Positions 8,006 to 64,000 of a stretch of DNA of 64,000 bases are shown here, in pieces. The position numbers and the translations under genes are program-made. The stretch lies in the NCBI GenBank assembly GCA_012862575.1, contig BLSF01000019.1, positions 124,001-188,000 of the forward strand, in the 5' to 3' direction. The first letter of the stretch is position 1; each line of letters begins with the position of its first letter. This DNA is from Parietichytrium sp. I65-24A (lineage: Eukaryota > Sar > Bigyra > Thraustochytrida > Thraustochytriidae). The notes below the pieces were generated by a model. The model ran no database searches. It was not told the DNA's origin and saw only the letters and a program-made list of their open reading frames with translations.

Positions 8006-8507
8006 ATGGACGAGGTGAGAGAGCAGGACAGGTACCTGCCTGTGGCCAACATCAACAGGATCATGAAGCGGTCGCTGCCGCCGAATGCGAAGATTGCAAA
8101 GGACGCAAAGGAGACTGTACAGGAGTGTGTTTCGGAGTTTATTTCCTTCATCACGTGAGTTGAGTGGCGAGTTGAGAGGAGAAGAAAGAATGAATGAATG
8201 AAAGAAAGAGCCAGGCATGCGTTTTGTGTGCGAATTTGCTAGCTGTGTTGTACGAGGATCTGACAAATGGGGGTTGACTGGCTGCTGCAGTTCGGAGGCG
8301 TCTGATAAGGTGCTTACGGAGAAGAGGAAAACCATTACCGGAGACGATGTTTTGTGGGCAATGAGCACTCTTGGGTTCGACAAATATGTCGAGCCGCTCA
8401 AAATTTACCTCACAAGGTACCGCGAGAGTGTGAAGGGGGACAAGAACGAAAAAGGCATGGAGGGCACTGGTGCGTTTGCGTCTTCGTCTTCGGCTGGAAT
8501 GCCTTAA
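8006..8507 (+). CDS. NFYB: NF-YB / HAP3 CCAAT-binding factor subunit (two exons)
   Basis: A histone-fold protein that dimerises with NF-YC and, with NF-YA, binds CCAAT promoters. Exon 1 is 8006-8154 and exon 2 is 8291-8507. The 136-bp intron starts GTGAGT and ends CTGCAG; splicing joins ...SEFISFIT to [19 protein letters not shown] exactly as in the family core, in phase 2. The product is 121 residues. The family signature [10 protein letters not shown] opens the conserved block, followed by [17 protein letters not shown] and the C-terminal [18 protein letters not shown]. It is short, with only a Ser/Gly tail after the fold. The frame is open upstream to 7595, but that stretch has no family similarity and is not counted. 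The intron position is strongly supported by protein conservation. Confidence 0.95.
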
Positions 8508-26698: not shown

Positions 26699-29600
26699 AT
26701 GGCTGAAAACGAGACTTCGCTGGGGCTGGAGGAGTGCACGGAGGTGAGCGCAGCAGAAGAAGATGTCACAGGCATTGGTGCGTTCATCGTGGTCTCGCTC
26801 ATCATTGGAGTGTTTCTCGAGATTGTGAAGCGAAAGCTCCCATGGCTGGCTCTGCCGTTTACTCTTTTGGTCTTTCTTGCAGGGGTGCTGCTCGAGGTGG
26901 TGCACGAGAATGTTCACCTGGGCTTCGTGTCCGACTCGATCGAGAACTGGAAGGAGCTGGAACCAGAAACACTTTTGTTTTTGTTCCTTCCTCCACTCTT
27001 GTTCACAAGTGCGTTCACTGTGGAGTACCATATCTTCAGAAAGCTCATGGGCCAGGCGGTTCTTCTGGCAACCGCTGGTGTCGTCATTTCTGCGCTTTTG
27101 CTTGCTCTTGTCGCGATCGGAATATTCGGCTACGGATGGGGCTTCGAGGAAGGCATGTTGTTCGTAAGTTCACAGTGTGCTTGTTGTTGGCGAGATTGGC
27201 GAAAGAGGCCGAGCTGACTTGCTTAACCGAATTTGTTGTAGGGTGCAATGTTTGGCGCAACCGACCCTGTGGCCGTCGTAGCGCTCCTGCACGAGCTTGG
27301 TGCACCAGAGACACTCAGCGTGATGATTGAGGGCGAGTCACTCCTCAACGACGGTGTCGGATTTGTGCTGTTCTTGGTGTTCTTCGAACAGCTCTCTGGT
27401 CGTGCAGATTATGGTTTTGGCGACATCATCGTGAAAGTTTTGGTCGCTTCCTTTGGAGGTATTTTTGTTGGCTGTGGCATCGGTTATTTGGGCCTCCTCA
27501 CCCTTCAACAAGTGTGGGGTGACACCATCCTTTCCTTCGTTATCACTACCATCATGGTGTATGGCGTTTTCTTCGTGAGCGAGGCATTCCACGTTTCCGG
27601 AGTAGTTGGAGTTGTCTTTCTCGGAATTTTTGTGGCCGCCTACAGCGACGGGTACATCAAAGCTGAGGTGCTGGACGACCTGAAGAACTTTTGGAAAAAG
27701 ATTGAGTTTGTCGCGAACACTCTCGTCTTTTCCTTTTCAGGGGTCATCGTGGCCGGAATCCTGCTTTCTTCAGACACAACCTACCAGGCTACTGGCCGTG
27801 ATGTTCTCAATCTGGCAATCCTCTTCGTGCTCATCAACTTGATTCGCGGGGTTGCGGTTGCAGTGCTCTACATTCCGCTCAAAAATATGGGTTATGGAAT
27901 TGACATGAAACAGGCTGTGCTCGTGAGCTATGCGGGAATGCGCGGAGTTGTTGGCCTGATTGCCGCGCTCGTCATTGTCAAGGATTGCAGTTGCGCAGCC
28001 AACCAGATCCCCACCGAGGAAGCGCCTTGTGTCACGTACGCCACACAGAGCAGGATGATGTTCCACATGGCTGGCACAGTATTCTGGACCCTTGCCATTA
28101 ACGGGACAACCACAAAGTACCTCGTCAACTACTTTGAGCTTAACAAAGATGGTGCAGCCTCTCGATCCTTTTTTGACAAGGCGACCGTCAAGCTTCACGA
28201 GCACATGAACTACACCATCGAGTCTTTGAAACGACACCCTCACTACAAGGAAGCAGACTGGGACGAGGTCTGGAAACACATGCCGATCCTCAGCCACAGC
28301 GTTTTTCAGGCACGCAAACAGCTCGGCGTGGAGAATGCTCGATCCTCTGTGGTCATTTTAGGCGATATCGAGAAACTTGCCAAAGAGAGGTATGCCGGGC
28401 TCGGTAAGTCGAACGGCAAAGTTCTTGGGCTCACTGGAGTGGACCCGGAGGCTGGAATCGTGACCCCTCAGGAGCAACTTTCGGAGGCGCGCATTCGTTT
28501 TCTCGAACTGATTAAGGCATCGTACAGAAAGCAGTACCAGGAAGGCGCCAACAAGTCATGGCCGGAACTGCAGGTGCTCATCGAAGCTGCCATGCGTTGC
28601 CAGGACAAGCCCGAACAGCCAATAAGGGAGTGGCAAGACAGTGTGGAAAAGTATCTCGGACGCTTTAATCTTTGCACAGCAGTCTCAACTTGCGACTTCC
28701 AAAAGCGCTCGCCAACTGATGGCTATGCAAAAGCTTATGAGATGGCGACCACGTTTCTGAGAAGCCACAAGACTGTGATCCCGAAATTCAGGGAACTGTG
28801 CGAGGAATCTGATGCACGGGTGATGCAGACCGTTCTGGACGAGAACAAAGAGATGTTGGCGCTCGCTGAAGCGTTCACTAAGAGAATTGAGACAGAGTAT
28901 CCTGAAGTGGTTGCTCAAGTGTAAGTTTTTTCTACGTTTTCTGTATGTGTTTGTAACCTTTTTCGAGATGAGTGGAATCTAACGGCGGGAAAACGCCTCG
29001 TGTGTTCAGGAAAACTGATGTGGCCATTCAGAGGCTTTTGAACGAAATGTCAGCATTCTCCGACCAAATGCTCGAGCATGCGCTGATCGGGGAGAAGGAT
29101 CACCACACTATCGAGCATGCACTAGAGGAGAGCTGGCATCATATGAAGCACCGGAAGAAGGGTCACGGCGGCCGGATCCAACAGATGATGAACAGAGGGC
29201 AATCCATGCAGGTTCCGCCGCGCAATCGCCAACCAAACTGGAGGGACTACCCAATCTTTTCGGACGTGGACAGCGCTACTCTTCAAGTGATCGAATCCAA
29301 CGTGCAAACAGTGAAGATTACCAGGGGCAATGTGCTGGTCCAGTCTGGATCCGAAATCCGCAACATCATAATCGTCTCTAGAGGAACCGTCAATTTGCTC
29401 TCCTCCAGCGGCCGCGTTCGTACGCAAAAGTCCGTCGGTGACGCCATCGGAACCCTGGGCTACACTTGCGGAATGCCCCAGCCATTCACTGTTGCTGCTG
29501 CAACCGATGTTGAGGCCTTTGCCATTCCCGTCTCTGCGCTGTACAACTTGATGCAGCGCAGCCCAGTCTTCTTTGCCAACGTCTATCGCGACGCAGGCCT

Positions 29601-30084
29601 ACTCATACTGGAAGGGCAGTTCCCACAACTCAAAAACCCATCCTTTGATCTCCTCAAGAACCTGCTACCAAACATCCGTATCGTGTGCTCGGGATCACGA
29701 CCAGGAACCGACCGCAGCTTCCGCGCCCCGCTCGTTGTGCGCGAGAACGAACCCTTCGATCTGCATGGCGGCCTCGTCATTTGCTTTCAGGGATCCCTCA
29801 CTGAAACCGGCAGGTCTTCGCGGCTCAAGCTTCACAAAGTGCATCGATCCACTGGGCCAATGGCCTTTGCCCCTAGCACCATTGCAATGTTTGTCACCGC
29901 GCAAGCAGCTTCTATGCTTGACCAGGCATCCGCTGGCGGGTTTCGCAGAAGCGGAGGATCATCTGACTCAGACACTGTGGGATACAACCCACTCGGGAGC
30001 GTGGCACGCGAAAGCCTAGTCTTCGGCATGACGATGGGGCGTGCTAATAAAAACCGATTCCTTGCCAGCACGAGGTACCGATAG
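26699..30084 (+). CDS. SOS1-type Na+/H+ antiporter with C-terminal cNMP-binding-like domain (three exons)
   Basis: Exons 26699-27163, 27242-28920 and 29010-30084 give 1,072 residues. Intron 1 (78 bp, GTAAGT...GTAG, phase 0) and intron 2 (89 bp, GTAAGT...TTCAG, phase 2) rejoin the conserved frame. The N-terminal part is a CPA1 exchanger: FLPPLLFTSAF, then GAMFGATDPVAVVALLHELG and IEGESLLNDGVGFVLFLV, containing the DP and ND ion-site motifs, over about 12 helices. A cytosolic linker of about 300 residues follows, then a cyclic-nucleotide-binding fold (about residues 795-905). This order matches plant SOS1, which exports sodium at the plasma membrane. No voltage-sensor block was seen, which argues against the sperm NHE type. 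The phosphate cassette lacks the usual Glu and Arg (GTLGYTCGMPQPFTV), so cAMP binding is doubtful. Exon 3 has no ATG of its own, supporting the joined gene. Confidence 0.88.
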
Positions 30085-45541: not shown

Positions 45542-47554
45542 TCAAACGTCGAGGCCGGCGGAGCGTGAAGAGGTTTCGCTCACGGGGCGCGTGACAAATC
45601 CAGTGGCTGCTGCACGGGTTAGGAGGAAAAGCGGGCTGCGGGATACATCAGAATTCACAGAGTCTGTGTATCTTGAGTCAGGCGCTGATGTTTGCATTAT
45701 AGGGCGGTGCGCTGGGGGTGCCCCCACATGAGATCCAAATTGGGACCCACCGATCGAACCGAAAGAGTCGGAGCTCAAAACTGTGAGGTCGTCCTCGGTA
45801 TCGTTGCCTCGATGCCGAAACGAGAACACTGCTGCCATTGTTGCCAGCAAAATACCGCCCACGACACTTCCTGCAATTATTGGAGCGAGGCTCCCATTGC
45901 TGGCATTATCCTCTGAGCTCTGTGTCGGAGAATCTGATTCGCTGGTGAGACGACTCGTTGCGCTGGTGGTTGGGCTACGGGTGCTTGTAATGCTGGTTGG
46001 GGTGCTGGTTGGGGCGATCGTGCTGCCATCTGTCGACGATATTGTCGGCGCGGGCGACTCCCCGCCATCGCCATCGCCATCGCCATCGCCACCACCACCA
46101 CTTGATGAAGTTGGCGAAGATGTAAAAGGAGCACCGGTCGGCAATGGAGTGGGGGCATTTGACGGTTGTTTTGTCGGTTTAATCGAAGGCGCAAACGTCG
46201 GTGCACTTGAAGGGAAAAGCGATTGCATGTCAAAGGTCGAAGACACGACGGCCCATTTGCCATTACTTGTTGCAGAATCAAAGTAGGTCCCGGAAAATGT
46301 ATTCACGCATCCCATAGAGGCCACACAGCTAAGAGACTGCTCATAGAACGATCGGCCTGATCTTGTGGAAATGTCGCTGAACCTTGCCACAGAAGACCAT
46401 GTGGCGCCCCGGTCCATGGTGTACGTGTACGCTGGGCTATTGTCTGAGCTGCTGTAAACCTCCCAGGTGATCACGCAAGAATTCGCATCAAAGCACATTG
46501 CCGACGGAGCATACGCGCCTCCGCTGCTTGGATTGTGCAGTACTTGTAATTGACTCCAAGTTGCGCCTCCGTCGGTGGACATAGAGTACTCCACCCACCA
46601 ATACACGTAGTTGTTGCTGCTCGAAGATTTATAACTTGCATCAGCGGCCATAATACAAGTGTCGGATTTGTCAAAGCAAGAGATCACAGGGTCGTACTCC
46701 TGAAGCTCTTGGCTAGATGAGTAGGCATTGTCCATTTTGGTCGACATCTCAACCTGGTTGAGCGCTGTCCAAGTGGCGCCTTGATCGACAGACCGACTTA
46801 CGTATATCCCGCCAAATTTAGACCAATTATTCGAAGATATGTATTCCCAGCCAGACAGGGTCACCATGCATAGCGACCCGTCACTGTGGCAGTACAAAGT
46901 AGGTGCGTAAACCGCATATTCCGTGGCGGATGCAATCACTGTGTGAGCATTGGTGATGTAGTCAACCCCTCCATCGGTTGAGCGCATCAAGTAGCAGACC
47001 TCCGTACTGCTTGAGCGACCCGTCAAGAGGCACGTAAAAGTGCTTTTTGGAGAAGAGGTCGAGAATGAGTCGGTTGCAAAACATTTTATGTCCACATCAT
47101 AGAAAAACTCGGTGTTTACGCTTGGAAGTGTGAGAGCAACGCTGGTCTCCCACGTTTGCCCTCCATCGAATGATCTGGACGAGTACGTTCCTTTGCTGTC
47201 CTTGTCCTCTACCCACGCAGCAACGCAAATTTTGTGCCCTGACTTCTCAAAGCAGGATATTCTTGGCTGGATGTACCTCTTGCCGTAATCCGAAACAAGT
47301 TGCGAATACGTCCAGGTGGTGCCAAAATCTGTCGAGTACCCTGTCCGGATTCCGCTTTTCTGTTGCCACTCGCCCGAGGTGTAAACAAAAGCACTTGTGC
47401 ACGTCAAGTCGCTGAAGCAATGCGTGTGCGATGCCCATGAGTGCTCCGAAGAGCTTTCCGAGACAATCGAGACGCCCGTGAAAGCTTGGACTCGAGCGAT
47501 GCTTGAGATTGCGAGCAGCACGCAAATCCGGAAGGTTGCCCATGTCGAGGCCAT
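45542..47554 (-). CDS. Asp-box (BNR) propeller, type I membrane protein A
   Basis: A 670-residue protein with a signal peptide (MASTWATFRICVLLAISSIA). The ectodomain (about 25-420) alternates seven short Cys-x(5-10)-Cys units (HCFSDLTC, ISCFEKSGHKIC, LYCHSDGSLC, ISCFDKSDTC, MCFDANSC, LSCVASMGC and one longer) with six Asp-boxes (STDFGTTW, SFDGGQTW, STDGGVDY, SVDQGATW, STDGGATW, MDRGATW). This is a sialidase-like beta-propeller. The FRIP motif and Arg triad of true sialidases are not visible, so binding or adhesion is likelier than catalysis. A PTxxPT stalk, a Gly-Asp run coded by CGCCAT repeats, one transmembrane helix (APIIAGSVVGGILLATMAAV) and a Ser-rich cytosolic tail follow. The GTG-started extension to 47584 was dropped. 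Confidence 0.8.
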   Translation of the reverse strand: MASTWATFRICVLLAISSIARVQAFTGVSIVSESSSEHSWASHTHCFSDLTCTSAFVYTSGEWQQKSGIRTGYSTDFGTTWTYSQLVSDYGKRYIQPRISCFEKSGHKICVAAWVEDKDSKGTYSSRSFDGGQTWETSVALTLPSVNTEFFYDVDIKCFATDSFSTSSPKSTFTCLLTGRSSSTEVCYLMRSTDGGVDYITNAHTVIASATEYAVYAPTLYCHSDGSLCMVTLSGWEYISSNNWSKFGGIYVSRSVDQGATWTALNQVEMSTKMDNAYSSSQELQEYDPVISCFDKSDTCIMAADASYKSSSSNNYVYWWVEYSMSTDGGATWSQLQVLHNPSSGGAYAPSAMCFDANSCVITWEVYSSSDNSPAYTYTMDRGATWSSVARFSDISTRSGRSFYEQSLSCVASMGCVNTFSGTYFDSATSNGKWAVVSSTFDMQSLFPSSAPTFAPSIKPTKQPSNAPTPLPTGAPFTSSPTSSSGGGGDGDGDGDGGESPAPTISSTDGSTIAPTSTPTSITSTRSPTTSATSRLTSESDSPTQSSEDNASNGSLAPIIAGSVVGGILLATMAAVFSFRHRGNDTEDDLTVLSSDSFGSIGGSQFGSHVGAPPAHRPIMQTSAPDSRYTDSVNSDVSRSPLFLLTRAAATGFVTRPVSETSSRSAGLDV
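46063..46100. repeat. CGCCAT repeat coding Gly-Asp
   Basis: Five to six hexanucleotide units inside the stalk of Asp-box protein A; on the minus strand they encode a GDGDGDGDGG run. Confidence 0.85.
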
Positions 47555-50500
47555 GTTGACAAACACCGCACAGCCGTCGCCCACTGGGTGGGCTTCCGAG
47601 GCAACGAAGAGGGTCTATCAGCTCTGACTCTCCCCAGGCCAGCCGCAAATCCTTGTTGATCGTCCCTCCGTACCCGCGACAACCACAATCGGGATTCCCT
47701 GCTGCTTTGTGTGGTTGGTTGAAGAGCTTCGGTCGGACGATCCTGCAATAGGCACTTCATTCAGTAATAAAACTCCTTCGCACACTTGCGCTTCTTGCCT
47801 TCCCAGCCCATCAAGTGATCTATTCTTCGCATGACCAAGGAGGGAGCAGTCCCTGCCACCTTTCCTTCCTTATTTCCCTCGTTGAAAAGATCGCGGGTAT
47901 AGGATGTCCTATGGAGCATCACTCGACGCTTGCCAATGCTTGCCACCATCTCGCCATGTTCGCAGATCTACGTTTCGATTACTGGTACATACTGGTACTA
48001 AGAGCAAACTCAAGGGTCCGAAACTCATTGCGGAGTGGTCCTACTAAAAGCATTGGTACACATGTAAGACTCGTTGGAAAATGTGCGAGGGATTTTGGAA
48101 GATTTGGAACTATTGCCTGTGGCCGGCTCGATGGCTGGCAAGTGGCTAGCACTCCACAAGGTATTCGGCCACGTGGGGAGTAGGTGGGCTTTCGAACTTC
48201 CATAATTTCACTTGGCAACCACATGATATGGCCGCACATCTCTCGCTGGTGGGCGGAGCAAGGTTACTCTCACCCCTGATGAGAGGCTTCATTGCCAGAC
48301 TTGCATAATAGTCCAATCCTCAGCTCTTATGGACTGTGGCATCGCCACTGGGCTAGCTAGCTATAGCCTCTTAAGATAGTAGTCGATACCTTAGTAGTAG
48401 TGGTGGACCATTCGGTGTTATCCAGCCGAAGATGGTACGAAGTGAGTGTGCATCGTCATGATTGACTATTGAGACTAGCCAAAATGTGTCTCCAAGATGC
48501 ATTTAACCTGTTTGACCTTCGCCTTTCGCCTAAGGGATCAGCACATCTGAGCAAACAAAGGGACCGTAGATCCGTTCTCTATAGATTAATTTTTAAGCAA
48601 ATTTTCAAGGCAAACAAGGGCTTACTCATGATACACTTCAATGTACATTTGTGATGTGCACGAAAACATATGAAGCGGAAACTTACCAAACGCCTGTACA
48701 TGCCTGTGCCACGCTCACCGCTGTGAACGACACCTGCCATGGTGGGTTGGTGGGGTGCGAACACAGCAACGCGCTCGCCGAACTTGCAGAGAATGAATGA
48801 ATAGATGAATGGATCTCTGTTGGAGTTCAACAACACTGCTGGAACTATACGAGTACCTTGTTGTTCGTTGTATGGCAGAGATGGTCGGCCATGACGGTCT
48901 CCAACTGCTGACAGTGAACGCCGCTTACTGTTCACAATCGATTCCAAGTAAAATGTCTGTTCGCTTGCGTAATTCTCGCCTCTCTCTCCGAGGTGATCAA
49001 ACTGACTGGGCTCGGCACTGCGGACATGCTAATTTGACATAAGGATGCATGGTTGCCATGGCAGAAAAACGAGGTGATTTTGGTAGCAGGTGCACAGTTC
49101 TCATTCAATTTTTGTTTCCAACTCTGCTTACTCTGCTTGGCGTTTTTTAATCAATCACAGGCTGGTGTATTGTGGTGCTACTGGAACGCAAAAATCTGTA
49201 CACTATGATAACACTATTTCTATTACTCACTACCGCTTGCCACGAGCTCTCGTTGAATGTTCGAAGTGGGAAAAAATGGGAGCGTGGCAACTTTCCGTCC
49301 ATTCACCTCTAGGGGATAAGCTAATAACGTTATACTGGTGATGCGGCGAGAGTGTGCACTTTTGTTAGTGTCAGTTTCAATTTGTAGTTTTGCTGTTCCT
49401 ACTGCAGTAGACAACTAGATCCGACTTGACGAGGAAGGAAAGGAGAAGCTTTCGCGAGAAAATATATGAAATTTGCCGGTATGCTTAAGCGAGACTCGGA
49501 GTGGCAGCCATGCACAGCAGGATGTGGCGTCGAAGGGAATAGCTGGGCAGTACTTGTGCTACCCGGGTGTCAGTGATCGCAAGAGGATCATGATGTCAGA
49601 CATCAGCGCAAGACTAGTCTCCGTACTGAGCGGGGCACGCGGTCAAATCACGCTGCAATCTTGGAATCTGACCATTCCACTATGGCAGAGGTTACCGCTG
49701 CGATATGCTGTGATCTCAAATGATCTCAACAAGAAAGCAAGTTGTGCTCGCTCGGAGGGAGGAGAGGAAAGGAAAGGAGGAAAGGAGAAAAGCGGGCATT
49801 CTCGACAAGTCTACAGTGAAAATGTTGCTGCTCTTCCAAAAAGACTCCGACCGACGAGGCTGAGTTGAGATTGCTCTCGAGAAACGGTACACTGTATTGA
49901 TGCGTATTGATGCCATGTGCTGTGGCTGTGAGAACAAAGGTTGCACAACACTCGAGATTGCAATTTCGATGTTTACTTGCTAGCAGCTTGCCACGATGTC
50001 GTGGAAGGCTGGTCCAATTCTCGCCGATGGCGCGATACATCGATCGATGGAGCGTTGGCACAGAGAAGGGAAGATCTCGTCATTGACTCTGGCCTATCTT
50101 GGCCGACCACGTGGAGACCACGTCCGAACTCGCGACTTTCGTGGCGTTGCAGTTCACTTGCAAGCAACAGAGCGTAGCTGAGCGTTGGATGCATCAGGAT
50201 CCATACAAAGTCTTAACCTCAAAACGCACAGACATGAATACTCCTTCTCTGTTCTTCAATTTGTCTGGGTAAAAACGAGTCTGAGCGAGAATAGAGTTGG
50301 AGTGGTTCAGTCAAGGTGGCACAGCAGGCACAACAGACATTTCCAAGCTTCTTTGTCATGGCAGTCAACTTTCCCCGCACTCCTCACATGCCAGCATATT
50401 GCACAAAACCGATGCGAGATGTCCCACTTCAGGCATCCCACCAGGGACATCGTGGCGCGCTGCTCCTTGCTAGGATTTTCGCTTCTGCTGCACTACACGG

Positions 50501-52237
50501 TTCTCGCTGTTCTCGGCCGGGAAACACTTCCAAGGTCCCTGTACGTTGGCGATCTTATTAGTTAATCACCGCGATTCAAGCGATTAGAACAGTGAATTCT
50601 GCATTTCTGAATTTTGAAGTCTGAGTATTCTCATCGTTCCACGGCCCTCACCGTGCAGTGCTCGCAGTCGAATAGAGGTGAGTCAAATTACCTTCCATCA
50701 AGCAAAAACGTGGCACACCTCAGCCTATTTACAAGTGTGCTCCGTGGTGTGCCATGGTGTTGTGGCTCGTGGCGCACTCGTGGCAACGGTGTTAGGAAGG
50801 AAACTCGACCTTGTGATTGGTATTTGTATCAAGCAAGCTCATAACTTAATTGGAATTGGGGGGAACACATGGGCGAGCCAATTTGTCCTAGCGAAGTGGA
50901 GCTAATCCCGAAAATATAACTCATCCTCCCGGCACTTTCACCCCCCACCGCGGACGCAACGTCTGCAGAATCTCACATGCCATCGATTGACCGTCAACAC
51001 TTGTCAGCCCTTCGGCTTCCACGTCTATGCGAGGATCGCAAGGATTCAACCGACCAGGCAAACTTGTATTCTAGCTGTGAAAAACTGTTTAAAAGTAACC
51101 AAATTTTCTTGGCAAGGGAGTTACATCATGCAGCTCATTGATGTTGAACACCCACCCCACTCGCACTATCGCAGTATCGCAGTATCGCACTATCGCACTT
51201 CTCCATTCTGCATCTGCCCGTAGTCGCTTCCTTACTCAAGTTCATTTGCCATTGATTGGTGCCGTCCAACTCGCTCAAGACCTCATTTCCCAATTTATCA
51301 TCCCTTCCTTCCAATGCATCCACTACTACTCCACTTACAGGATCCTACAGGGCACGCCCCGCCCCTTCCTCCTCCTCCCCTGCAAGCCCCTCCCCCCACT
51401 CATCCCACTCATCCCGTCCGCCCCTATTGCTCCCTTTAGGTTCGTCCGTAGAAGGCAGTTGGCGCTCGGTTGGGTGCGTTCATTGTTTGGAGTGGAAACC
51501 TAGCGGAGACATAGTGGAAACATGTGGAAACTTTGGAAGGCGACTTGGATTTGGGCTAGCCGTTGGCTAAGAGGTGGGCTATGATAGGCGGCGGTGCTCG
51601 AGCATTAGTATACGGATGACTATCCACACAGAGGAAAGAGTATGATTGACAGTGAAATGAGTGAAAATTTGGAAAGAGAGAAGGAAAGAGAGGAGAATGA
51701 GAAGGGTGCGCGATTACGCCATTACGCAACTACGCGATTAAGCGATTTTTAAGCGATTGAGCGAAAGCAAGAGAGAGCAAGAGAGAGAGGAGGGAGAGAG
51801 GTGATCTTTGTGACTGTCTGGCTGGAACGAAACCGAAGAGTGAGTGTGGGTGTGGATGTGGATGTGGGTGTCTTCATTGATCTTCATTGCCTCGTAGTAC
51901 AAGTTGGCCGTGGTGAGAGGGGCAACAAGTGAGGAGACAGCAGAGTTTGGGACTGGGTGCGCAATACAGCAGGGAAAGGGACCGAAGCAACAAACAGCAC
52001 CCAGCGCGGTGTGCATACGTCAGTCAGATCTCACAGTGAAGAAGCTGTCCAGTGACGCTCGGCCAGAAGGATAAGCGGCTCAGTGTACTTACTGCACGTG
52101 GTGCGACTTGAGAAGTCCAGTCACCCTTCGGTGCCTAAGAAACAAAGAGTGTGAAGGAAGGCACCACAGGTGTGGATGTCTCGTGCGTCCAAGTCTGAAG
52201 GAGAAGTGCGATTGTGAACCGCCATAGGAGCGGAACA
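47555..52237. other. 4.7 kb gene-free interval between head-to-head paralogues
   Basis: No convincing gene, RNA gene or transposon was seen on either strand. Open frames of up to about 130 codons begin at non-ATG codons and lack domains. Local repeats: ACTGGTACAT (47981-47998), a YTATCGCA/GTATCGCA run (51172-51200), ATTACGC/CTACGCGATTAAGCG units (51711-51760), GA-rich tracts (51668-51800) and GTGTGGATGTGGATGTGGGTG (51845-51870). It could hold long promoters or regulatory RNA. Confidence 0.45.
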
Positions 52238-54073
52238 ATGCGCCTGTGTGCCCTCGGGGCCGCCGTTGTCGCGTGGGCCTGGTCGGCACGGTGCGCAGCA
52301 GGGTTTGCAGGCTCGAGACAGTTTCAAGATGCCAACGGCAATCTAGTGACGGAGGAGATGGAGGAAGTGGCTCTGCAATGCTTCGCCAACCGGGAGTGCG
52401 TGATGGCGTTGGAGGCTACTAGCTCGAAAAATATCGGCGTGGCTAGATCCACAAACCTTACTTGGACCTGGGATCCCTTGCAGACAGTCAGCGAAGATGG
52501 AAAGAACCCAAAACTTTCGTGCGCCGCCGGTAGCGCTGCATCCTTGTGCGTGGTAGCATGGAACAACAAAAATGACGACAGTGCATTCGCTTCGAGGTCC
52601 GTTGATGGTGGGATAACATGGTCCACTCCAACAGCACTGCCGATCGATTCAGCCACGCTAGGAAAGATATATGCCGTGGATGTCCAGTGCTATTACCCCC
52701 GGGAACAGAGCGATATGGATCCCGATAGCGCCATCTGCGTCGCAATTGCAGAGGTGAGCCCGGCAGACAACGTGCGGAACATTCTGAGCTTAGTGTCTTC
52801 AAATGGCGGGCAATCCTTTCGGTTGAACGCCGAACCCATCGCCGGCGTTGCAAACAATATTTACCCTGAATACCCACGGTTGCACTGCACCCCGTGGGGG
52901 GATTTGTGTCTCGCCACCTTCACAGTGAGGGACATCGAGAACGGCTCGCTGAACGGGCCGATGGAGGTGGCATGGGTCAACTCCATAGACGACGGCCTAA
53001 CCTATTCAGAAGTTGACAGGCTGGGCCGGTCTGCGAAACATCTCGCAATAACAGCCACCGCAAATTTAAGATCTTCGCATCCGGCTCTGTCATGTACCCC
53101 TGATGGTGTGAACTGCGTGATCATTGCGGAGTCGTATACTCGCGCGGATGGGACCGACTCGAACCGCTGGATTGAAATTGCAGTGTCTAACGACGGTTCC
53201 AAGACCTGGACCAGCATGCAGGAGCTTTATCTCCCTGCAAATGACGGCTTCACCGCAGATGAAGGCGCTGTGACGTGCTTTGGGCAACGTACTTGCATTG
53301 CTGTTTGGGAGCGCGACCTGTCGACTGACAAAGCACCCATGTACTCGATGTCCACTGACGGAGGGGCAAATTGGACAGTCCCAGCCGCGTTCACCGACCA
53401 CAACGGATTGGAGTCTGACGATGTGGACCTTTCGTGTGTAACCGGCATTGGCTGTGTGTCGGGCTGGGAAGGGTGGCAGGATTCTACTCCACTTATATTC
53501 TTTAGCTTCTTCCAGATAACTCTGTCGCCAACCGTGGCCCCAACGCTAGGCCCGTCAATTGCCCCTACGGCATCGACGACAGAAGATCTTGGCGGCAGCG
53601 CGCCTACAGCTTCTTCCTCCTCCGATTCAAGTATCAGCTTTGGACCAATTTTGATTGCCGCGGGTGGCAGTCTCGTTGCCTTTGTGATCCTCGTCATCAT
53701 CAGGGTAACCCTGAAGAGACTGCAAGAGCCTCCACACGGTAACATTCGGGAAGATGAGTGGGCAATGGACGCCAAGTCTGTGGTCACTGACTGGTCTGGA
53801 ACTGATGACTCCTTGTTTTCCACATCCAACTCCTCAGGCACATCTAACACATCCGGACCAAGTCCTGTGGCCCTTGGGAATACACCTGCCCCAACTGGTG
53901 GTATTCACAAAAAGCTTGGCCGCAACAAGAACAAACGATCGACTCTTTACAATGTGCCTCTTCCTTCGCAGTCTAGGTCTTCGCGATTTTCGAGCATCAT
54001 TTTCATGTTTGTCCCCGCAAGATTCTCGAAGCAGCCCCAATCTGGTCAATTCGGCGGAATCCCAGAAGTCTAA
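52238..54073 (+). CDS. Asp-box (BNR) propeller, type I membrane protein B
   Basis: A 611-residue paralogue of the protein at 45542-47554, in the opposite orientation. A signal peptide (MRLCALGAAVVAWAWSARCA) precedes the same alternating design: seven Cys pairs (LQCFANREC, LSCAAGSAASLC, LHCTPWGDLC, LSCTPDGVNC, VTCFGQRTC, LSCVTGIGC and one longer) between Asp-boxes (SVDGGITW, SSNGGQSF, SIDDGLTY, SNDGSKTW, STDGGANW, with a degenerate first one). An APT-type stalk (TVAPTLGPSIAPTAS), one transmembrane helix (FGPILIAAGGSLVAFVILVI) and a cytosolic tail of about 120 residues rich in Ser and basic residues follow. No sialidase catalytic set was seen. The frame upstream to 52214 begins with GTG, so the ATG at 52238 is used. 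The stop codon lies in a hairpin stem. Confidence 0.8.
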   Translation: MRLCALGAAVVAWAWSARCAAGFAGSRQFQDANGNLVTEEMEEVALQCFANRECVMALEATSSKNIGVARSTNLTWTWDPLQTVSEDGKNPKLSCAAGSAASLCVVAWNNKNDDSAFASRSVDGGITWSTPTALPIDSATLGKIYAVDVQCYYPREQSDMDPDSAICVAIAEVSPADNVRNILSLVSSNGGQSFRLNAEPIAGVANNIYPEYPRLHCTPWGDLCLATFTVRDIENGSLNGPMEVAWVNSIDDGLTYSEVDRLGRSAKHLAITATANLRSSHPALSCTPDGVNCVIIAESYTRADGTDSNRWIEIAVSNDGSKTWTSMQELYLPANDGFTADEGAVTCFGQRTCIAVWERDLSTDKAPMYSMSTDGGANWTVPAAFTDHNGLESDDVDLSCVTGIGCVSGWEGWQDSTPLIFFSFFQITLSPTVAPTLGPSIAPTASTTEDLGGSAPTASSSSDSSISFGPILIAAGGSLVAFVILVIIRVTLKRLQEPPHGNIREDEWAMDAKSVVTDWSGTDDSLFSTSNSSGTSNTSGPSPVALGNTPAPTGGIHKKLGRNKNKRSTLYNVPLPSQSRSSRFSSIIFMFVPARFSKQPQSGQFGGIPEV

Positions 54074-56260: not shown

Positions 56261-56358
56261 CGGACTGCGTGCGTACTATATGTAGTCCAAGACATTATTG
56301 ATAAGAGAGGACGTTACGGGGGCAAAAGCGGTCGGTCGGAGCGAAGGAGGTGAGGAGC

Positions 56359-56378
56359 CTTGCTTGCTTGCTTGCTTG
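56359..56378. repeat. CTTG x5 tandem repeat
   Basis: Five perfect tetranucleotide units ending 44 bases before the channel ATG; the frame reads through them but begins at TTG. Confidence 0.9.
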
Positions 56379-56422
56379 CGCAGAGAGGAAAGCCAGCTGC
56401 AGCGGACGCTGCCAGTTGGGAA

Positions 56423-59400
56423 ATGTCGGACGGTCATACGCCGCGGAAGAAGCGCCAGACAGTGCGGGCGCTGCTGGTCATCGATGTGCAAAATGACTTC
56501 ATCGACGGAAGCTTGGCGGTGCCGGACGCCAAAGCGATTATCCCGGTAATTAACAAGCTTCGAGGAAAGGCGTTCGACTTTGTGTACATGTGCCTGGACT
56601 GGCATCCTTGCAACCACTGCTCCTTTCGCACCAACAACCCGGGGTCTAATCTTTTCCAGGTCCTCCACCTGCCTTCCACCGGAGATGCGCAGATTATGTG
56701 GCCGGATCACTGCGTTCAAGGCACGCGTGGTGCGGAGATCCACGAAGACCTTGTTACTGAGCCTTCGGATATATTCACCTTTGCCGGATGCAACCCACAG
56801 CGAGACAGTTATTCGGTGTTTAAAGACAATGGAAGCGCAGTGCTCACGGACATGCGCGACTTGCTGGAAGAAAACAACGTCACAGAGATTTACGCTGTTG
56901 GCCTTGCTACAGATTATTGCGTGCAGTACACTGTGTTGGACGCCAAGGTATTGATGCAGAATGTTGATGTGTTCTTTGTGCAGGATGGTTGCAAAGGCAT
57001 TCAGGAGACGCTGGTGTCGAGCGCGATGAAGAAATTTGAGTTCGAAAAAATACACGTGATATCGTCTGACGGCCCAGAGATTGGCACACTTGATGATCGC
57101 AAGTTAAACTTAACAGGCACGCTGCAACTAACTAAACGCGCAGTTGGCTGGGCAGACCTTCGCATCCAGGAGATTGACGAACTCTACGAGTATATTCTTT
57201 ACGACGGAACCTCAAACGTACACGAAGACCTCAACCGCTGTGTTCAGATGGGATATATTAATCAACTGTGTTCGTGGAGCTGCAAGAACGCTCTTCACGC
57301 ATGCTGTGAAACCGGCAATGTTGAACTATTGCAGTACTTGATCAGCATAACAGAGGAGAGACAGTTGCTGGACTTTGGTGCGCGGACTAAGAAAGATGAG
57401 AATGCATTGATATTGGCAGTAACATGCAAGAAAAAGCATGTTAGGCTCACGTTGGTACAGCTGCTATTGACCCATGCGTCGGACTCGCAGCAGAGAGAGC
57501 TATTGTACGGCCAAACTGCACAACAAAAGCTCAACGCGCTCATGCTGGCCTGCAGGAATGGAGACTGCGAGGTGGTAGAGAGAATCCTCTCATACAACTG
57601 CTCCATGTATCATTTGCAAATAACCTCTACCTTTGGAAAGACTGCCATCATGTTTGCGTGCATGACGGATACTCAACAACACGCTGCTGTGATAGAAGTC
57701 ATTTTGCGCTCACAGGGAACCATAGAGGATCGGATCGGGCTTCTCTCCCAAAGTGACTTCGAAGCGTGGACCAGTTTGCACTTTGCTGCAAAGTCTGGCT
57801 GCTTCGCCGGCGTGGACTGGAGCCGTTGTTTAGATGGCTATGAGAATGTAGCACTTCTCCCCGTCAATGCCGTGACAAATTCAGGAATCACATTTTTGCA
57901 CTTGGCAGCTTTCAACGGAAAGTCGGAAGTCATTCGAGCAGTTTTGGAGAGTCATCAGCCGAGCAAAAGAAGAAAAAACCTGCTCAGTGCAATTTTGAAG
58001 AAAGGACTGCGGCATAAAATAAAGGTAAACGTTCCCGTGAAGACAACGAGGGACACCGAGCTTGATCTGGCTCTTCAGCGGAGGCACTTGGAATGTGCAA
58101 GGTTATTGTTGCGCCTGGGAAGCCATGCGAGCACATCATCAGCCCCTGAGCTGCATGAGCTGTTGCACAGATTGGTTTTGATGGGCGATGTCGAGGCTTG
58201 CGAAAGCATTCTCAATTACGCCGATGAGAACAGAATTACCGTGGACGACACCCTAGTGGAGCTGACACAAAGAATGGAGCATCCAGAGACTTGTACATTT
58301 TCGTTTGCGGGATACAACAACACGATCACGCAATTTATCTATAAGTGCACATTCTGCGGACAGCACGTATGCCTCGTCTGTAAGGATCGATGCCACGGAG
58401 CGCAATCCTGTCGAAAAGATCAGATCGCCCTCGATAGAGAGCATAACCCAAATGCAGGCTGGGTGGCCAAAGGAACGGTGAACACTCACTGCGAGTGTAA
58501 TCGAGAGCGCTGTTGTGCAACGGCGGCAACGGACGTTCGTGAACTTGAGGGTTACCGCTACTTGCCAAACCCGATTGCCTCAGCATCTATAAACCTATCC
58601 TCAAAGTTGAGTCAGTTATCCAAGCGGATTGCAAGAAACATGCACAACGTTTGGGCAAGGAGCAAAATAGAGAATGGGTGGTGTTTCGGACGCAACAAGG
58701 ACGACGAGCAAAAGTTTCACCCTCATCTCCTCCCATTCAGTTCTCTTTCCTACGAAGGAACCAAGTATAATATGGACATGGCCATGGAAACCGTAAAAGT
58801 GATTGTGGCGCTTGGCTACGATCTAGTTCGCAGAGATGACTCGGATAAGCTCTCCGCCATAACGGAAAGTTCTTCGCAGTACGATACCGAAGAGAAGGGT
58901 GCGGAGAAAAAGACAAAGCTAAATTTGCTGGTCAGCAGCGTGAACGATATTGTCCAGATGAGCAAGGAAGGGGGAGCGCGGAAGTTGCTTTCCCCAAAGG
59001 CTGGGAATGGTGGTGTTGGTGGCGGGTTTAGCTTGGACTCGAAACCTCACCGTCGGTTGGCCCCTCTCTACCAAGGCGAAGAAGGGCGAACTGTCAAAGA
59101 TGTGGATTTGGCGTGGAATGCGGACCTTCCCGAGTGCAAAATCATTGATACGAGCACCGTGCGCATCCCTGAAAATCTAAAATTTTTGGTAGAGACACTC
59201 GCCTCCAACAGTCACGAAGTTTGGGCCAGTGAGAAACTCCGGCAGGGATATCGCTTTGCACCAGCGAGGAATATTAAGCCGGGCTTACTTCTCAACTCCT
59301 CGTTGGTTCCATACGAATTTCTCACCAAGCAGGAAAAATTGTATTTAAAAGAGGGCATCGAGGAGACCCTCAAAGTGATCCTAAGCTTTGGATGGGCCAT

Positions 59401-62400
59401 CAATTCCACGGACGCTACAGACAGAGCTTTACTCGGCCAAGCCGAGCCAGGATCTGGAGGCGGAAGTCAAGTTGGATCTTCCATGTCAGGTCCGCAAAGG
59501 AAGCATTCCGTTGACAAGCAGACGAAGCAGGGTCTGGCGTTTAAGCAACTGAAATATATTCGTCGGAAACTCTTCGACCAGTACCTTTTCGCGGCGGTGA
59601 GAAGAGGGCAGATAAACTCCGTCAATATTCTCCTCTCCAAGCGAGCAAGCATGTACGCCGGAGCAAATTTGAACGCCGTTGACGAGTACGGGCACACTCC
59701 GCTGTACATTGCCATTAAGCGAGGGCATGTCGAAACGGCCAAGCGACTCCTCCAGCTCGGAGCAAACGTCGAAATTAGAGACATCAATGGCCTGACGCCG
59801 CTCGCCCTGTGCTCGTATCTGGGAAATCTCAAGCTATGCCAGGAGTTGGTGCAGAGCTCTGCGCGAATTCTTGTCGTCGACAATATGGGGTTCACGCCGC
59901 TGCATCTTGCAGCGTACGAAGGCCACTTCAAGGTGTGCCAGTATTTGACTGAAAGGCTGCAACAAGAGAACCAGGCAAATGAGATCGTAGACCTCAACTC
60001 CAATATTCGAAACTTGCTTGCGCGGGACGCGTGGATGGGTTCAGACGAATCAAAGGCAAGGGGCAGAGCGGCGAAATTGAGGTCTAAATCCGTGGCCGTG
60101 GAACAGGCTAGGAGCGTCTCCATGTTTGCGACGATGATCAAAGCATCCATGAACCGAAAGACGCTCAGCAAAATTAATCCTCTGGACATTGGCGCGATTC
60201 CTTTGGAGCAAAATATCTTGTCCACCCCTCGCACACCGCGCGTATCCCAAGAAGTAAGCGACATACTTTCCACCCCGCGCGGCAGCTTGAATAGCGAATC
60301 TGGCGGCCATCGAGACGCTCAAATGGAGTCTTTGGCGGAGCTCAAGCTTGGAGATTTCTCGCCACTTTCGTTAGCGATCCGGTCCAACAATATTGACGTT
60401 GTTGAACTGCTTATTAAATTAGGAGGTAATCCCATGCAAGCCGACGGCAACAAAGATCGAGGAAGCATGTTCAGCCCATATGTTCGAGCATTGTTTCGTC
60501 ACATTGAGATGACAGAACAAGTGGAATTCTTCAAGGACCAAATCAGCCGACGAGTGATGATGGATTTGGAAGCCTCTGGAACCAAAGAGCAAACGAAAAT
60601 TGGCCTCTTGTTTGACAAAAGTAACCGGAAAGGTCGCGGAGGAAACCATTCCACCGACGAAGGCCTCGCGGAGGGGGATACTAATCGCCAGTATAGCAAC
60701 AACGCGAATTCAAGGCACAACTCCACGAGAGGAATGAATCAGGCGCTCGCACCATTCGGAAAGCGTCTGCAAATGATTCGCAAAGCAGATAGTCGTCTTA
60801 CCAACTTTTTTGGCTTCAACATCAAACAGGAGGAGAAGCAGTACCACGTAAGCAAGTCAACGCGCGAGTTGGATGAGCTTCTGGAGAAGGCACAGGAGGG
60901 GCGTCTGCACGCAGCGCGGATGGTGGAGGTCTTGAATCAGAGCAGCAAAGTTAGTGCATGGCGCAAGAAATGCGCGATCAAAATGTTTGTTAGAGAAACA
61001 TTCAACTTGTTGATGATGATTCTCCTGTTTGCCCTCGTCATCCAGCTCGCTCCTGACTATGACTTTGCGGCGGAGAATAATTGGGGCAACGAGTTGAGCG
61101 AATATTTTGAATCGCGACTCTCGGATGTGGACTCCCCAGCCGAATTTATTGATTGGATCGAAAATGATGTCTTGGCCACCTCTGTCCAATCGAGATACAA
61201 CCAAACAGCGTTGCTGCACTACAATGTCTTTTTTGGCAAGGTTTTGTTCGAGTCGTACATCCTGGACGACACCATCTCTGACTTTGAGGCCGCCTTAACG
61301 TACAGCTCGTCGTTGAGCGACTACGTAAGCCACAAGTGCGTCGAGCTGGACCAGCTGGCGGATATACAAGAAAAAATCGGGAACGTGTCATCCGATGGAA
61401 CGGTCAGGGAGCTGTCAGTGGATTTCAACATGTTCAATCCATACAGCAATGTGTTTGGCGCCGTTCAAGTGACGTTCTCGGCTTCCTACTCGGGGCGCAC
61501 GAGCATGGCGGTGGAGGTACTGCCTTTCCGGCTTCGATACAAGCGATTTCCGCCTTCGCGGCCTTTCCAGGTGGTCTTAGGGGTCATGGTGATTACGTTT
61601 TCTTTCTCCAAGGTGAAGGGGCTATTTTCCCACCGCCAGCGCAAGCGCAGCAAGCCAGAAGAGTGGATCACTGCCTTTTTGTTGCTTGGCATCTTGGTGT
61701 ACGATATTTATTTGTACGAGGTGATTCGTGTGATTCCAGAGGATCCGTTGTCGGCCACTGGTGCAGACTTTTCTTATTCGGCGTGCGACAGCAGCGTTCA
61801 CCTGGAGGACGTGTATCGGCTTTTGGAGATAGAACGGAGATGCTTTGCGGTGTTTTTCTTTCTTTCGGTGATCCCTTTGCTGAACGCAGCGCGTACTATA
61901 CCAAGCATTGGCCCGGTTGTCGTCGCGCTGTTGAACACGATGACGCACTCAGCGGTGCTCATTTACTTGATGGTGGTTGCAGTTTCGTGCTTTCTCATGA
62001 CGCTTACGTTTCACGTCGGGTTTGGCAGCGCTGGGGCAGGTTTGAGCACGTTTAGCGCCACGTTCGAGACACTGTTCCTTTCGCCTTTTCTGGACTCATG
62101 GGACGACATACAGGCCACGGAAACAACTGGAACGCTGGGGATGATCTTGGCGCTCTTTTACATTCTCTTTGGCACCATCACTCTCAACCTGCTCATTGCG
62201 ATCGTGACGGACGTATATCCCAGTTGTCGCTCCGCCAGCGACCGTCTGTGGGAGGAGATCATCACGCAAGGTATCGAAGAAAGCCTGAAAGATCTTGTGC
62301 ACGGCAATTATACCAAGAAGAACGCCCTGCATATAGACTTTTGGAACGAGGAGATGCTGCTCTCCGGCAAAGACGGCGTCAAGCACTGGCGCAAGGAGCC

Positions 62401-62518
62401 AGAGCGCAAGACTTCCGAGGTCGCGGACCTCAGGTCCCAGATCGCCTACCTCACCAAGCTCGTCGAGTCCCTCGTCGCCGACCGCGACCAGCCCCCATCC
62501 TGCGACAAGCAGAACTAA
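56423..62518 (+). CDS. polycystin/TRP-like channel with N-terminal nicotinamidase-like domain, ankyrin, UBR-like finger and RyR repeats
   Basis: One uninterrupted frame of 2,031 residues. Residues 15-215 match nicotinamidase: LLVIDVQNDF (Asp21), DWHPCNHCSF (Asp59, His61), WPDHCVQGTRGAE (His96) and GLATDYCVQYTVLDA (Cys166). The catalytic Lys position before GCNPQRDSYS is Ala121, so it is probably not an active enzyme. Ankyrin-like repeats follow (about 288-602), then a UBR-box-like zinc finger (about 624-691, CTFC...CLVCKDRCHG). Two RyR repeats (about 726-803, with NMHNVWARSKIENGWCFG; and about 914-992, with SNSHEVWASEKLRQGY) precede a second ankyrin set (about 1050-1340). From about 1524 there is a channel: S1, a 170-residue extracellular loop, then S2-S6 ending TITLNLLIAIVTDVY, as in polycystins/TRPML. 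A short C-terminal coiled coil ends the protein. Ligand gating is inference. Confidence 0.85.
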   Translation: MSDGHTPRKKRQTVRALLVIDVQNDFIDGSLAVPDAKAIIPVINKLRGKAFDFVYMCLDWHPCNHCSFRTNNPGSNLFQVLHLPSTGDAQIMWPDHCVQGTRGAEIHEDLVTEPSDIFTFAGCNPQRDSYSVFKDNGSAVLTDMRDLLEENNVTEIYAVGLATDYCVQYTVLDAKVLMQNVDVFFVQDGCKGIQETLVSSAMKKFEFEKIHVISSDGPEIGTLDDRKLNLTGTLQLTKRAVGWADLRIQEIDELYEYILYDGTSNVHEDLNRCVQMGYINQLCSWSCKNALHACCETGNVELLQYLISITEERQLLDFGARTKKDENALILAVTCKKKHVRLTLVQLLLTHASDSQQRELLYGQTAQQKLNALMLACRNGDCEVVERILSYNCSMYHLQITSTFGKTAIMFACMTDTQQHAAVIEVILRSQGTIEDRIGLLSQSDFEAWTSLHFAAKSGCFAGVDWSRCLDGYENVALLPVNAVTNSGITFLHLAAFNGKSEVIRAVLESHQPSKRRKNLLSAILKKGLRHKIKVNVPVKTTRDTELDLALQRRHLECARLLLRLGSHASTSSAPELHELLHRLVLMGDVEACESILNYADENRITVDDTLVELTQRMEHPETCTFSFAGYNNTITQFIYKCTFCGQHVCLVCKDRCHGAQSCRKDQIALDREHNPNAGWVAKGTVNTHCECNRERCCATAATDVRELEGYRYLPNPIASASINLSSKLSQLSKRIARNMHNVWARSKIENGWCFGRNKDDEQKFHPHLLPFSSLSYEGTKYNMDMAMETVKVIVALGYDLVRRDDSDKLSAITESSSQYDTEEKGAEKKTKLNLLVSSVNDIVQMSKEGGARKLLSPKAGNGGVGGGFSLDSKPHRRLAPLYQGEEGRTVKDVDLAWNADLPECKIIDTSTVRIPENLKFLVETLASNSHEVWASEKLRQGYRFAPARNIKPGLLLNSSLVPYEFLTKQEKLYLKEGIEETLKVILSFGWAINSTDATDRALLGQAEPGSGGGSQVGSSMSGPQRKHSVDKQTKQGLAFKQLKYIRRKLFDQYLFAAVRRGQINSVNILLSKRASMYAGANLNAVDEYGHTPLYIAIKRGHVETAKRLLQLGANVEIRDINGLTPLALCSYLGNLKLCQELVQSSARILVVDNMGFTPLHLAAYEGHFKVCQYLTERLQQENQANEIVDLNSNIRNLLARDAWMGSDESKARGRAAKLRSKSVAVEQARSVSMFATMIKASMNRKTLSKINPLDIGAIPLEQNILSTPRTPRVSQEVSDILSTPRGSLNSESGGHRDAQMESLAELKLGDFSPLSLAIRSNNIDVVELLIKLGGNPMQADGNKDRGSMFSPYVRALFRHIEMTEQVEFFKDQISRRVMMDLEASGTKEQTKIGLLFDKSNRKGRGGNHSTDEGLAEGDTNRQYSNNANSRHNSTRGMNQALAPFGKRLQMIRKADSRLTNFFGFNIKQEEKQYHVSKSTRELDELLEKAQEGRLHAARMVEVLNQSSKVSAWRKKCAIKMFVRETFNLLMMILLFALVIQLAPDYDFAAENNWGNELSEYFESRLSDVDSPAEFIDWIENDVLATSVQSRYNQTALLHYNVFFGKVLFESYILDDTISDFEAALTYSSSLSDYVSHKCVELDQLADIQEKIGNVSSDGTVRELSVDFNMFNPYSNVFGAVQVTFSASYSGRTSMAVEVLPFRLRYKRFPPSRPFQVVLGVMVITFSFSKVKGLFSHRQRKRSKPEEWITAFLLLGILVYDIYLYEVIRVIPEDPLSATGADFSYSACDSSVHLEDVYRLLEIERRCFAVFFFLSVIPLLNAARTIPSIGPVVVALLNTMTHSAVLIYLMVVAVSCFLMTLTFHVGFGSAGAGLSTFSATFETLFLSPFLDSWDDIQATETTGTLGMILALFYILFGTITLNLLIAIVTDVYPSCRSASDRLWEEIITQGIEESLKDLVHGNYTKKNALHIDFWNEEMLLSGKDGVKHWRKEPERKTSEVADLRSQIAYLTKLVESLVADRDQPPSCDKQN

Positions 62519-62855: not shown

Positions 62856-62871
62856 GTACTGAGTACCGGTA
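62856..62871. promoter_or_regulatory. GTACTGAGTAC overlapping TACCGGTA
   Basis: GTACTGAGTAC (62856-62866) overlaps TACCGGTA (62864-62871), which runs into ACGTACGTAC. The cluster ends 75 bases before the FAM21-like ATG, joining both recurring palindromes in one site. Confidence 0.45.
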
Positions 62872-62946
62872 CGTACGTACAAGTCCTCGAGTACCCTAGC
62901 GTCCTCAGCGTATGCGCAGGTGTCCTCGCAGGGCGCTGTTCCAAGC

Positions 62947-63297
62947 ATGAGCGACGGCACTCTGTCCCTGCGGCGCGCGGTGCTGCACGACCCCGTCGAC
63001 CGGGGAGTTTCGGGCGCGGACACTCGCGTACGCTGGTCGGCGGGCGCGGACACAGCGCTGCGCGAGGCGGTGGAGCAGCTGTGCTCGCGCGTGGACCAGC
63101 GGCAGCAGCGTGTGGCCGGCAAGCTGGCGCAGCTGGCGGCGGGAGCTGGCGCTTGCCGCGCGAGGGCCAGGTGCGCCGCGGCGGGGCTGCGCGCGCTGGC
63201 AGAGACGCACTTTATAGAGTTCAGGGTGTATGACGACGATGGGGACGCGCAAGTCGATCCTGGAGACCAGCGCAAGGGCCAGCAACAGCAGCAGCAA

Positions 63298-63329
<32 letters not shown>

Positions 63330-64000
63330 GCAGCAAGAGCTGCCGGAGAGCATGAACGCCGTGGAGAGGAGGGCGAGGACGCTGCGATGGGCGCTAGCGA
63401 ATGTCGCACTGGCGGACGGGGTATCGGCGTCGCCAGAGATACAAGAGGTGCGAGAGCCACAAGGCGTTGGAGAGCAGCCTGAGCAGCAGGGGAGTCCGGA
63501 GCGGCTTGCAATGCTGTCGCCGAATGAGACGCAAAAGTCGCAAGGTGATGATGCTGGAGCGTCAGATAAGAGTGATGCTGGGGAGTCAGCTGATTGTGGG
63601 GGGCAAACAGGGTTTTCAGCCGCACTGGCTGCAGTGCTGGCCACGAGAGTTGCCGCAGCGGAGAACGATGCTGTAATGGTTGAAGATCTCTCTGGCATGA
63701 AGGAGAAGAACCTCGTGAAAGGCTTGATCACGTCGAACGAAATGGCGCAGGACGATGGAGAAGGCGCTAGGAGCTCGTTGCCTTCCGAGTTGGTCGAGAA
63801 GTCTCCGCTTGTGGAAGACCGCGCTCAAGCGGGCGACATGGCGGCAGACGAGGGTCAAGTAGCCAGTAGCGACCAGGGGTTTAGAGAGAGCTTGGCAGCG
63901 TCAGTCGCTCGGCGCGGACCTCCCTTGCTCCCGAGACCTGCTCAGAAGCTTCCCAAGGGCAACGAGGAGCAATCTTGTGAAACTTTGCCGAATCATATGC
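62947..64000 (+). CDS. FAM21/WASHC2-like WASH-complex subunit, 5' part (runs off window)
   Basis: The frame from the ATG at 62947 is open to the end of the window, giving 351 residues of an incomplete protein. The first 100 residues match the FAM21 head: a Trp-Ser opening (RWSAGADTALREAVEQL), a helical bundle of the same length, and the signature ALAETHFIEFRVYDDD, close to animal SNTQFIENRVYDEE. In the family this head assembles with WASH, strumpellin, SWIP and CCDC53, while the long acidic tail binds retromer and capping protein. After the head comes a 19-residue polyGln run (63280-63336), then an acidic Ser-rich disordered region as expected of the tail. Longer-looking frames on the opposite strand are antisense to this Gln/Ala-rich coding. 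Confidence 0.75.
63280..63336 (+). repeat. CAG/CAA x19 coding polyGln
   Basis: Nineteen Gln codons, mainly CAG with four CAA interruptions, at the junction of the FAM21-like head and its disordered tail. Confidence 0.95.

Follow-up and report, generated by a model that had tools for sequence, protein, structure and literature searches.

A 64,000-nucleotide stretch of the Parietichytrium sp. I65-24A genome (contig BLSF01000019.1, positions 124,001 to 188,000 of the forward strand; this whole stretch is called the window, and features are numbered within it) carries a gene in which a nicotinamidase-like domain is fused to an ion channel unit and the catalytic lysine of the nicotinamidase is replaced by alanine. 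The gene lies on the plus strand as a single open reading frame (ORF) at 56423..62518. The frame is open from 56354 to 62518, its first ATG is at 56423, and 2,031 codons are followed by a stop. In order, it holds a nicotinamidase domain with a predicted intact fold, ankyrin repeats, a Cys/His-rich segment, two RyR domains, further ankyrin repeats and an Ion_trans pore. We give about even odds (a probability near 0.5) to the reading that the product is a cation channel gated or modulated by a nicotinamide-type metabolite, with a retired nicotinamidase as its sensor; the loss of turnover, the ligand binding, the coupling and the conduction are each what we infer. A sequence-only reading of this DNA had described one stop-free frame of 2,031 codons with this succession of nicotinamidase-like, ankyrin, paired RyR, ankyrin and channel parts, and had proposed a Pfam search of the translated frame and structure predictions for the N-terminal domain and the pore. 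Pfam and codon usage both agree with that description, with Isochorismatase, Ank_2, RyR and Ion_trans all scoring above their curated cut-offs.

The N-terminal domain (residues 16-207; 56468..57043, plus strand) was identified by Pfam, Protein Data Bank (PDB), NCBIfam, AlphaFold and Foldseek comparisons. A Pfam-A search with the whole protein placed Isochorismatase (PF00857) at these residues with an E value of 7e-19. Against the PDB, the best solved relatives of the N-terminal part were the Acinetobacter and Drosophila nicotinamidases 2wt9 (E 1.1e-43) and 9u8m (E 1.3e-29), and the sole strong NCBIfam match of the domain was nicotinamidase, at 158.9 bits, under the cut-off of 174. AlphaFold, supplied with an 80-sequence alignment, returned a confident and intact nicotinamidase fold with a mean predicted local confidence (pLDDT) of 92.1, which bears out the proposed N-terminal assignment. 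A Foldseek search with this model gave 2wta as the top match (E 1.5e-23), and nicotinamidases were the nearest solved folds. By these comparisons the domain resembles nicotinamidases more closely than it does other isochorismatase-fold enzymes. With the nicotinamidases of Acinetobacter, Drosophila, yeast and others it has in common the fold, the residues of the metal site and, among the catalytic residues, Asp and Cys; they carry a catalytic Lys where the window protein has Ala, and here the domain is fused to a channel. Identity ranges from 34-43% to eight plasmid and phage relatives and from 35-42% to 79 genome relatives. A contig from a viral collection, L092, encodes at 88-660 a nicotinamidase that is 46% identical to the window domain in its best segment and keeps the catalytic lysine; by the same best-segment measure the best genome relatives also reach 46%, level with L092.

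Nicotinamidases act through a catalytic Asp-Lys-Cys triad (PMC3581539, PMC6271260). In the window domain Asp21 and Cys166 are kept and the lysine position is Ala121, so the full triad is absent. Its codon, GCC at 56783..56785 of the plus strand, is at least two base changes from the lysine codons AAA and AAG. The lysine is present in 79/79 alignable genome relatives; these derive from the best 80 of 594 confirmed relatives, one of which was dropped for its three-residue translation, and the lysine is not part of either of the two patterns used to retrieve them. It is likewise present in all eight aligned plasmid and phage relatives, which were chosen from 169 and 12 matching records and include one nearly identical pair (L005 and L007). 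When the nicotinamidase part was searched against viral contigs, three matching stretches were found, L092, L093 and the partial L094; L092 and L093 both carry the lysine, and L093 stops after the domain. Across the 79 genome relatives 25 columns are invariant, and the window domain retains 24 of them, the lysine being the only one lost. The retained columns include D59, H61, H65 and H96, which we take to be the metal ligands of the nicotinamidase domain. At eight further positions the domain departs from the 90% consensus. What is notable in this alignment is that the single lost invariant column is the catalytic one.

The likely consequence of this substitution can be judged from studied enzymes. 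In OiNIC, the Oceanobacillus nicotinamidase, the same Lys to Ala change (K104A) reduced the specific activity to 1.45% (PMC3581539). In a computed model of the pneumococcal nicotinamidase, nicotinamide is held at the zinc by its ring nitrogen, and the lysine serves to stabilise the thiolate of the cysteine (PMC6271260). Given this residual activity and these computed roles for lysine and zinc, binding with little turnover seems the likeliest behaviour of a lysine-less domain, and with alanine at the catalytic position the window domain should bind nicotinamide or nicotinate in this manner.

The channel unit (residues 1526-1937; 60998..62233, plus strand) comprises six transmembrane segments, a pore helix and S6, the six segments having been assigned by hand from the peaks of a hydropathy scan. 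Ion_trans (PF00520) matched residues 1804-1937 with an E value of 2.5e-6 and 27.3 bits in the whole protein, and with 33.7 bits on a fragment, against a cut-off of 25. The S1-S2 loop is 172 residues long (61055..61570, plus strand) and was tentatively assigned as a polycystin-type domain from its length and from a Polycystin_dom match below the cut-off (15.9 bits against 23.6, E 0.0094 on a fragment); searched against the PDB, this loop gave no match at E ≤10. The TRP/polycystin-like pore of the sequence-only reading thus stands as a six-segment channel with Ion_trans above its cut-off, and its polycystin label is weakened to a possible one. In a phmmer search of the PDB no match of the pore reached significance, those to NavAb having E values of 0.061 and 0.046 and that to the TRPM2 chanzyme one of 0.56.

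Between the N-terminal domain and the pore lie the two RyR domains, at residues 713-801 (58559..58825, plus strand) and 910-994 (59150..59404, plus strand). PF02026 covers both stretches with an E value of 4.2e-46 and 155.6 bits in the whole protein, against a cut-off of 27.4, which upholds the two RyR repeats previously claimed; domain 2 alone scored 67.1 bits (E 1.7e-18), and the best single stretch of domain 1 against RyR2 scored 56.6 bits. According to a 2026 preprint, phage RyR domains bind or cleave cyclic ADP-ribose signals: the phage RyR-domain protein RyDEP cleaves 2'- and 3'-cyclic ADP-ribose, contacting its ligand through H75, W78, H100 and D117, and of eight RyDEP relatives assayed six bind such signals and none cleaves them (PMC13232231). 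All four ligand residues are reported to be conserved in animal R12 domains (PMC13232231). The numbering of the four residues agrees with the sequence of the RyDEP gene (L089). In a five-sequence alignment, repeat 1 of the window protein retains three residues of the ADP-ribose pocket, the Trp (W744) and both His (H741, at the position of the catalytic His of RyDEP, and H766); it shares these three, along with the RyR domain itself, with both the RyR R12 domain and RyDEP. The column of the catalytic Asp117 of RyDEP holds Asn783 in repeat 1 and Leu in repeat 2, though an aspartate, Asp785, lies two residues past Asn783; in a pairwise reading, repeat 1 of RyR2 likewise has Asn at this column. 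Since the preprint reports this Asp as conserved in animals and Asp785 is present, the assigned column may be two residues out. In repeat 2, H931 and W934 are retained, and Asn and Leu fill the remaining pocket columns. From this mapping, a nucleotide pocket in RyR repeat 1 is plausible. Single-sequence queries of viral contigs with the whole protein, the pore and RyR repeat 1 found no relative. In L089 the RyDEP gene (7664-8080) stands between genes annotated as phosphoribosyl pyrophosphate transferase and nicotinate ribosyltransferase; in this phage operon, too, an RyR domain adjoins pyridine-nucleotide enzymes.

Taken together, the N-terminal nicotinamidase would be a retired enzyme in which the fold, the residues of the metal site and the catalytic pair of Asp and Cys persist. 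It would sense nicotinamide or nicotinate by binding with little turnover, and this binding would be relayed to the pore by way of the ankyrin and RyR parts. It can reasonably be inferred that the channel may respond to nicotinamide or to metabolites of NAD. When NAD is cleaved, the products are nicotinamide and (cyclic) ADP-ribose, and a more elaborate form of the proposal would make the protein a single-molecule detector of NAD breakdown, in which the nicotinamidase domain binds nicotinamide, the RyR pocket binds (cyclic) ADP-ribose, and the two jointly gate the cation channel. We regard this double-sensor version as speculative and unlikely.

Several observations weigh against a retired nicotinamide sensor. 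Ala121 is known from one sequence only, and Arg127 and Lys134 are near it in the sequence as candidate stand-ins for the lysine. When each relative was left out in turn, 9/79 lacked one otherwise invariant column (70/79 lost none), so the loss of one such column is not rare in itself. The OiNIC K104A protein was insoluble, and its authors name poor refolding as the probable cause of its low activity (PMC3581539). In the computed pneumococcal model the lysine also contacts a metal-site Asp (PMC6271260), so nicotinamide binding could be weakened in a domain that lacks it. For the pore, the proposed structure prediction failed, the single-sequence AlphaFold model being unusable at a pLDDT of 38.9.

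The same candidate stand-ins bear on the alternative that the protein is an active chanzyme, in which another residue replaces the lysine and the domain clears or makes a ligand beside a pore that is gated elsewhere. The preserved Asp21, Cys166 and metal-site residues would suit such an enzyme, OiNIC K104A has 1.45% activity (PMC3581539), and there is a precedent in the sea-anemone NUDT9H domain, which stays active in a channel gated at another site (PMC5671594). The presence of the lysine in every alignable genome relative and in the two viral-contig relatives argues the other way, and we consider continued catalysis quite unlikely. A domain with neither turnover nor a small ligand is also conceivable. 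Enzyme-derived domains can turn into scaffolds, and the N-terminal domain might serve as a structural relic that aids assembly or partner binding, with gating left to the RyR domains, to the ankyrins or to the membrane. Retention of 24 of the 25 invariant columns, among them the metal site, the Asp and the Cys, goes beyond what a pure scaffold would be expected to need, and makes this explanation improbable, if still a contender. A fusion of no regulatory meaning at the N terminus of a PKDRR-like channel (a polycystin pore with RyR domains) has some precedent as well. The oomycete PKDRR proteins pair such pores with two RyR domains, some carry extra domains as well (PMC7399828), and an Albugo member has unnamed N- and C-terminal domains seen in no other member (PMC4820453). 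The RyR domains precede the pore here, however, and follow it in PKDRR, and the conservation of the N-terminal domain with one catalytic residue lost looks selected; we see only a small chance that the fusion is incidental.

A separate question is whether the frame is one gene. In a codon model trained on 11 other ORFs of the window (6,586 codons), the frame of 56423-62518 topped the other two frames in 41/41 consecutive 50-codon blocks, the last of which extends beyond the stop, and across the linker between the nicotinamidase and the ankyrins (residues 190-319) the same frame was best in 6/6 overlapping 30-codon blocks. The intergenic control consisted of four 150-base stretches, overlapping pairwise, whose best-frame score was ≤0.06. 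As a caveat on the absolute coding score, 4/41 blocks and 2/6 linker blocks did not exceed this best intergenic frame score; the coding support is therefore one of frame preference and not of absolute score. These linker blocks, and the fact that the gene is known from genomic DNA alone, leave some room for a nicotinamidase gene that shares its reading frame with an independent channel gene, or for an N-terminal part that is spliced out. Set against this are 2,031 codons without a stop and the preference for the frame throughout the linker, and a standalone nicotinamidase would be expected to retain its lysine. Two genes or a hidden intron in 56423-62518 are unlikely, and we would assign separate genes or messages only a very slight probability.

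Ank_2 was found with an E value of 1.4e-47 in the whole protein. The first ankyrin block (about residues 285-600; 57275..58222, plus strand) gave Ank_2 E values of 5e-12 and 2.1e-11 on two fragments, the last fragment matching below the cut-off only. The second (about residues 1051-1185; 59573..59977, plus strand) gave Ank with E 1.7e-24 in the fragment scan and was also found by the whole-protein Pfam search. The Cys/His-rich segment between the first ankyrin block and the RyR domains (about residues 622-698; 58286..58516, plus strand) was assigned to no family. Residues 629-712 hold ten Cys and four His, a composition suggesting that the segment may bind zinc; its sole PDB match had an E value of 0.073. 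The UBR-box-like zinc finger suggested for it earlier found no backing, as zf-UBR is absent from the Pfam list at E ≤10, where only IBR appears (0.34); the HMMER filters remove most of what would lie above about 0.1 in such a list.

Elsewhere in the window, an ORF with a long glutamine run lies just downstream of the channel gene at 62863-63999 and is open at the window end. At 27242-30081 lies a sodium/hydrogen exchanger ORF with a cyclic-nucleotide-binding ORF after it on the same strand, and the two may be parts of a single exchanger gene interrupted by an intron. A match at 1649-3292 (E 2.4e-67) to the central coiled coil of ODAD1, an outer-dynein-arm docking protein, would suggest that the organism is flagellated at some stage. 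ORFs with BNR-repeat matches lie at 45545-47614 and 52199-54070, the second match being under the Pfam cut-off.

Among the matches listed from the open-licence literature, no title or abstract start describes a nicotinamidase-channel fusion. In the two listed texts that combine nicotinamidase, ion channel and ankyrin, nicotinamidase occurs a single time in each, in a reference in one and as a property of niacin in the other. By its parts, the nearest described family is PKDRR, which the sequence-only reading did not mention. The oomycete proteins combine a polycystin-type pore and two RyR domains in one chain, as here, although the polycystin label is unproven for the window protein. In PKDRR the RyR domains follow the pore (PMC4820453), whereas in the window protein they occupy residues 713-994, ahead of a pore that begins at 1526, and membership in the family is ruled out by this order. 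The main text of PMC7399828 contains neither of the words nicotinamid and isochorismatase.

With respect to the proposed ligand, the closest parallels are in animals. Nicotinamide opens the worm OSM-9/OCR-4 and the fly Nan-Iav TRPV channels, with half-activation of the worm channel at 63 μM, and the amount of agonist in the worm is set by a separate nicotinamidase (PMC5064019). These are nicotinamide-gated channels like the one proposed here, but the nicotinamidase is a separate protein there and is fused to the channel in the window protein. It has been suggested that a metabolite of the insecticide flonicamid acts on the fly nicotinamidase, a view that PMC11766345 disputes. If our reading is true, it would suggest that nicotinamide sensing by channels reaches beyond animals. 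With RyR domains beside a candidate nicotinamide site, the sensing of NAD products by the RyR-type domains of channels also becomes directly testable.

With respect to design, the comparison is with TRPM2, in which a channel is fused to a domain from an NAD-product enzyme, as here. The human TRPM2 NUDT9H domain has lost its enzymatic activity and binds ADP-ribose, whereas the sea-anemone domain still degrades ADP-ribose, removing the agonist (PMC5671594). The NUDT9-type domain is C-terminal in TRPM2, whereas the nicotinamidase of the window protein is N-terminal and accompanied by ankyrin and RyR domains. The earlier suggestion of a TRPM2-like coupling to NAD and nicotinamide metabolism gains weight because the nicotinamidase domain lacks its lysine and the human NUDT9H is inactive and yet binds its ligand; the UBR box and, in part, the polycystin identity named alongside it did not hold up. 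In principle the window protein would resemble human TRPM2, built from different parts, and if our reading is true it would stand beside TRPM2 as another case of an NAD-pathway enzyme turned into part of a channel.

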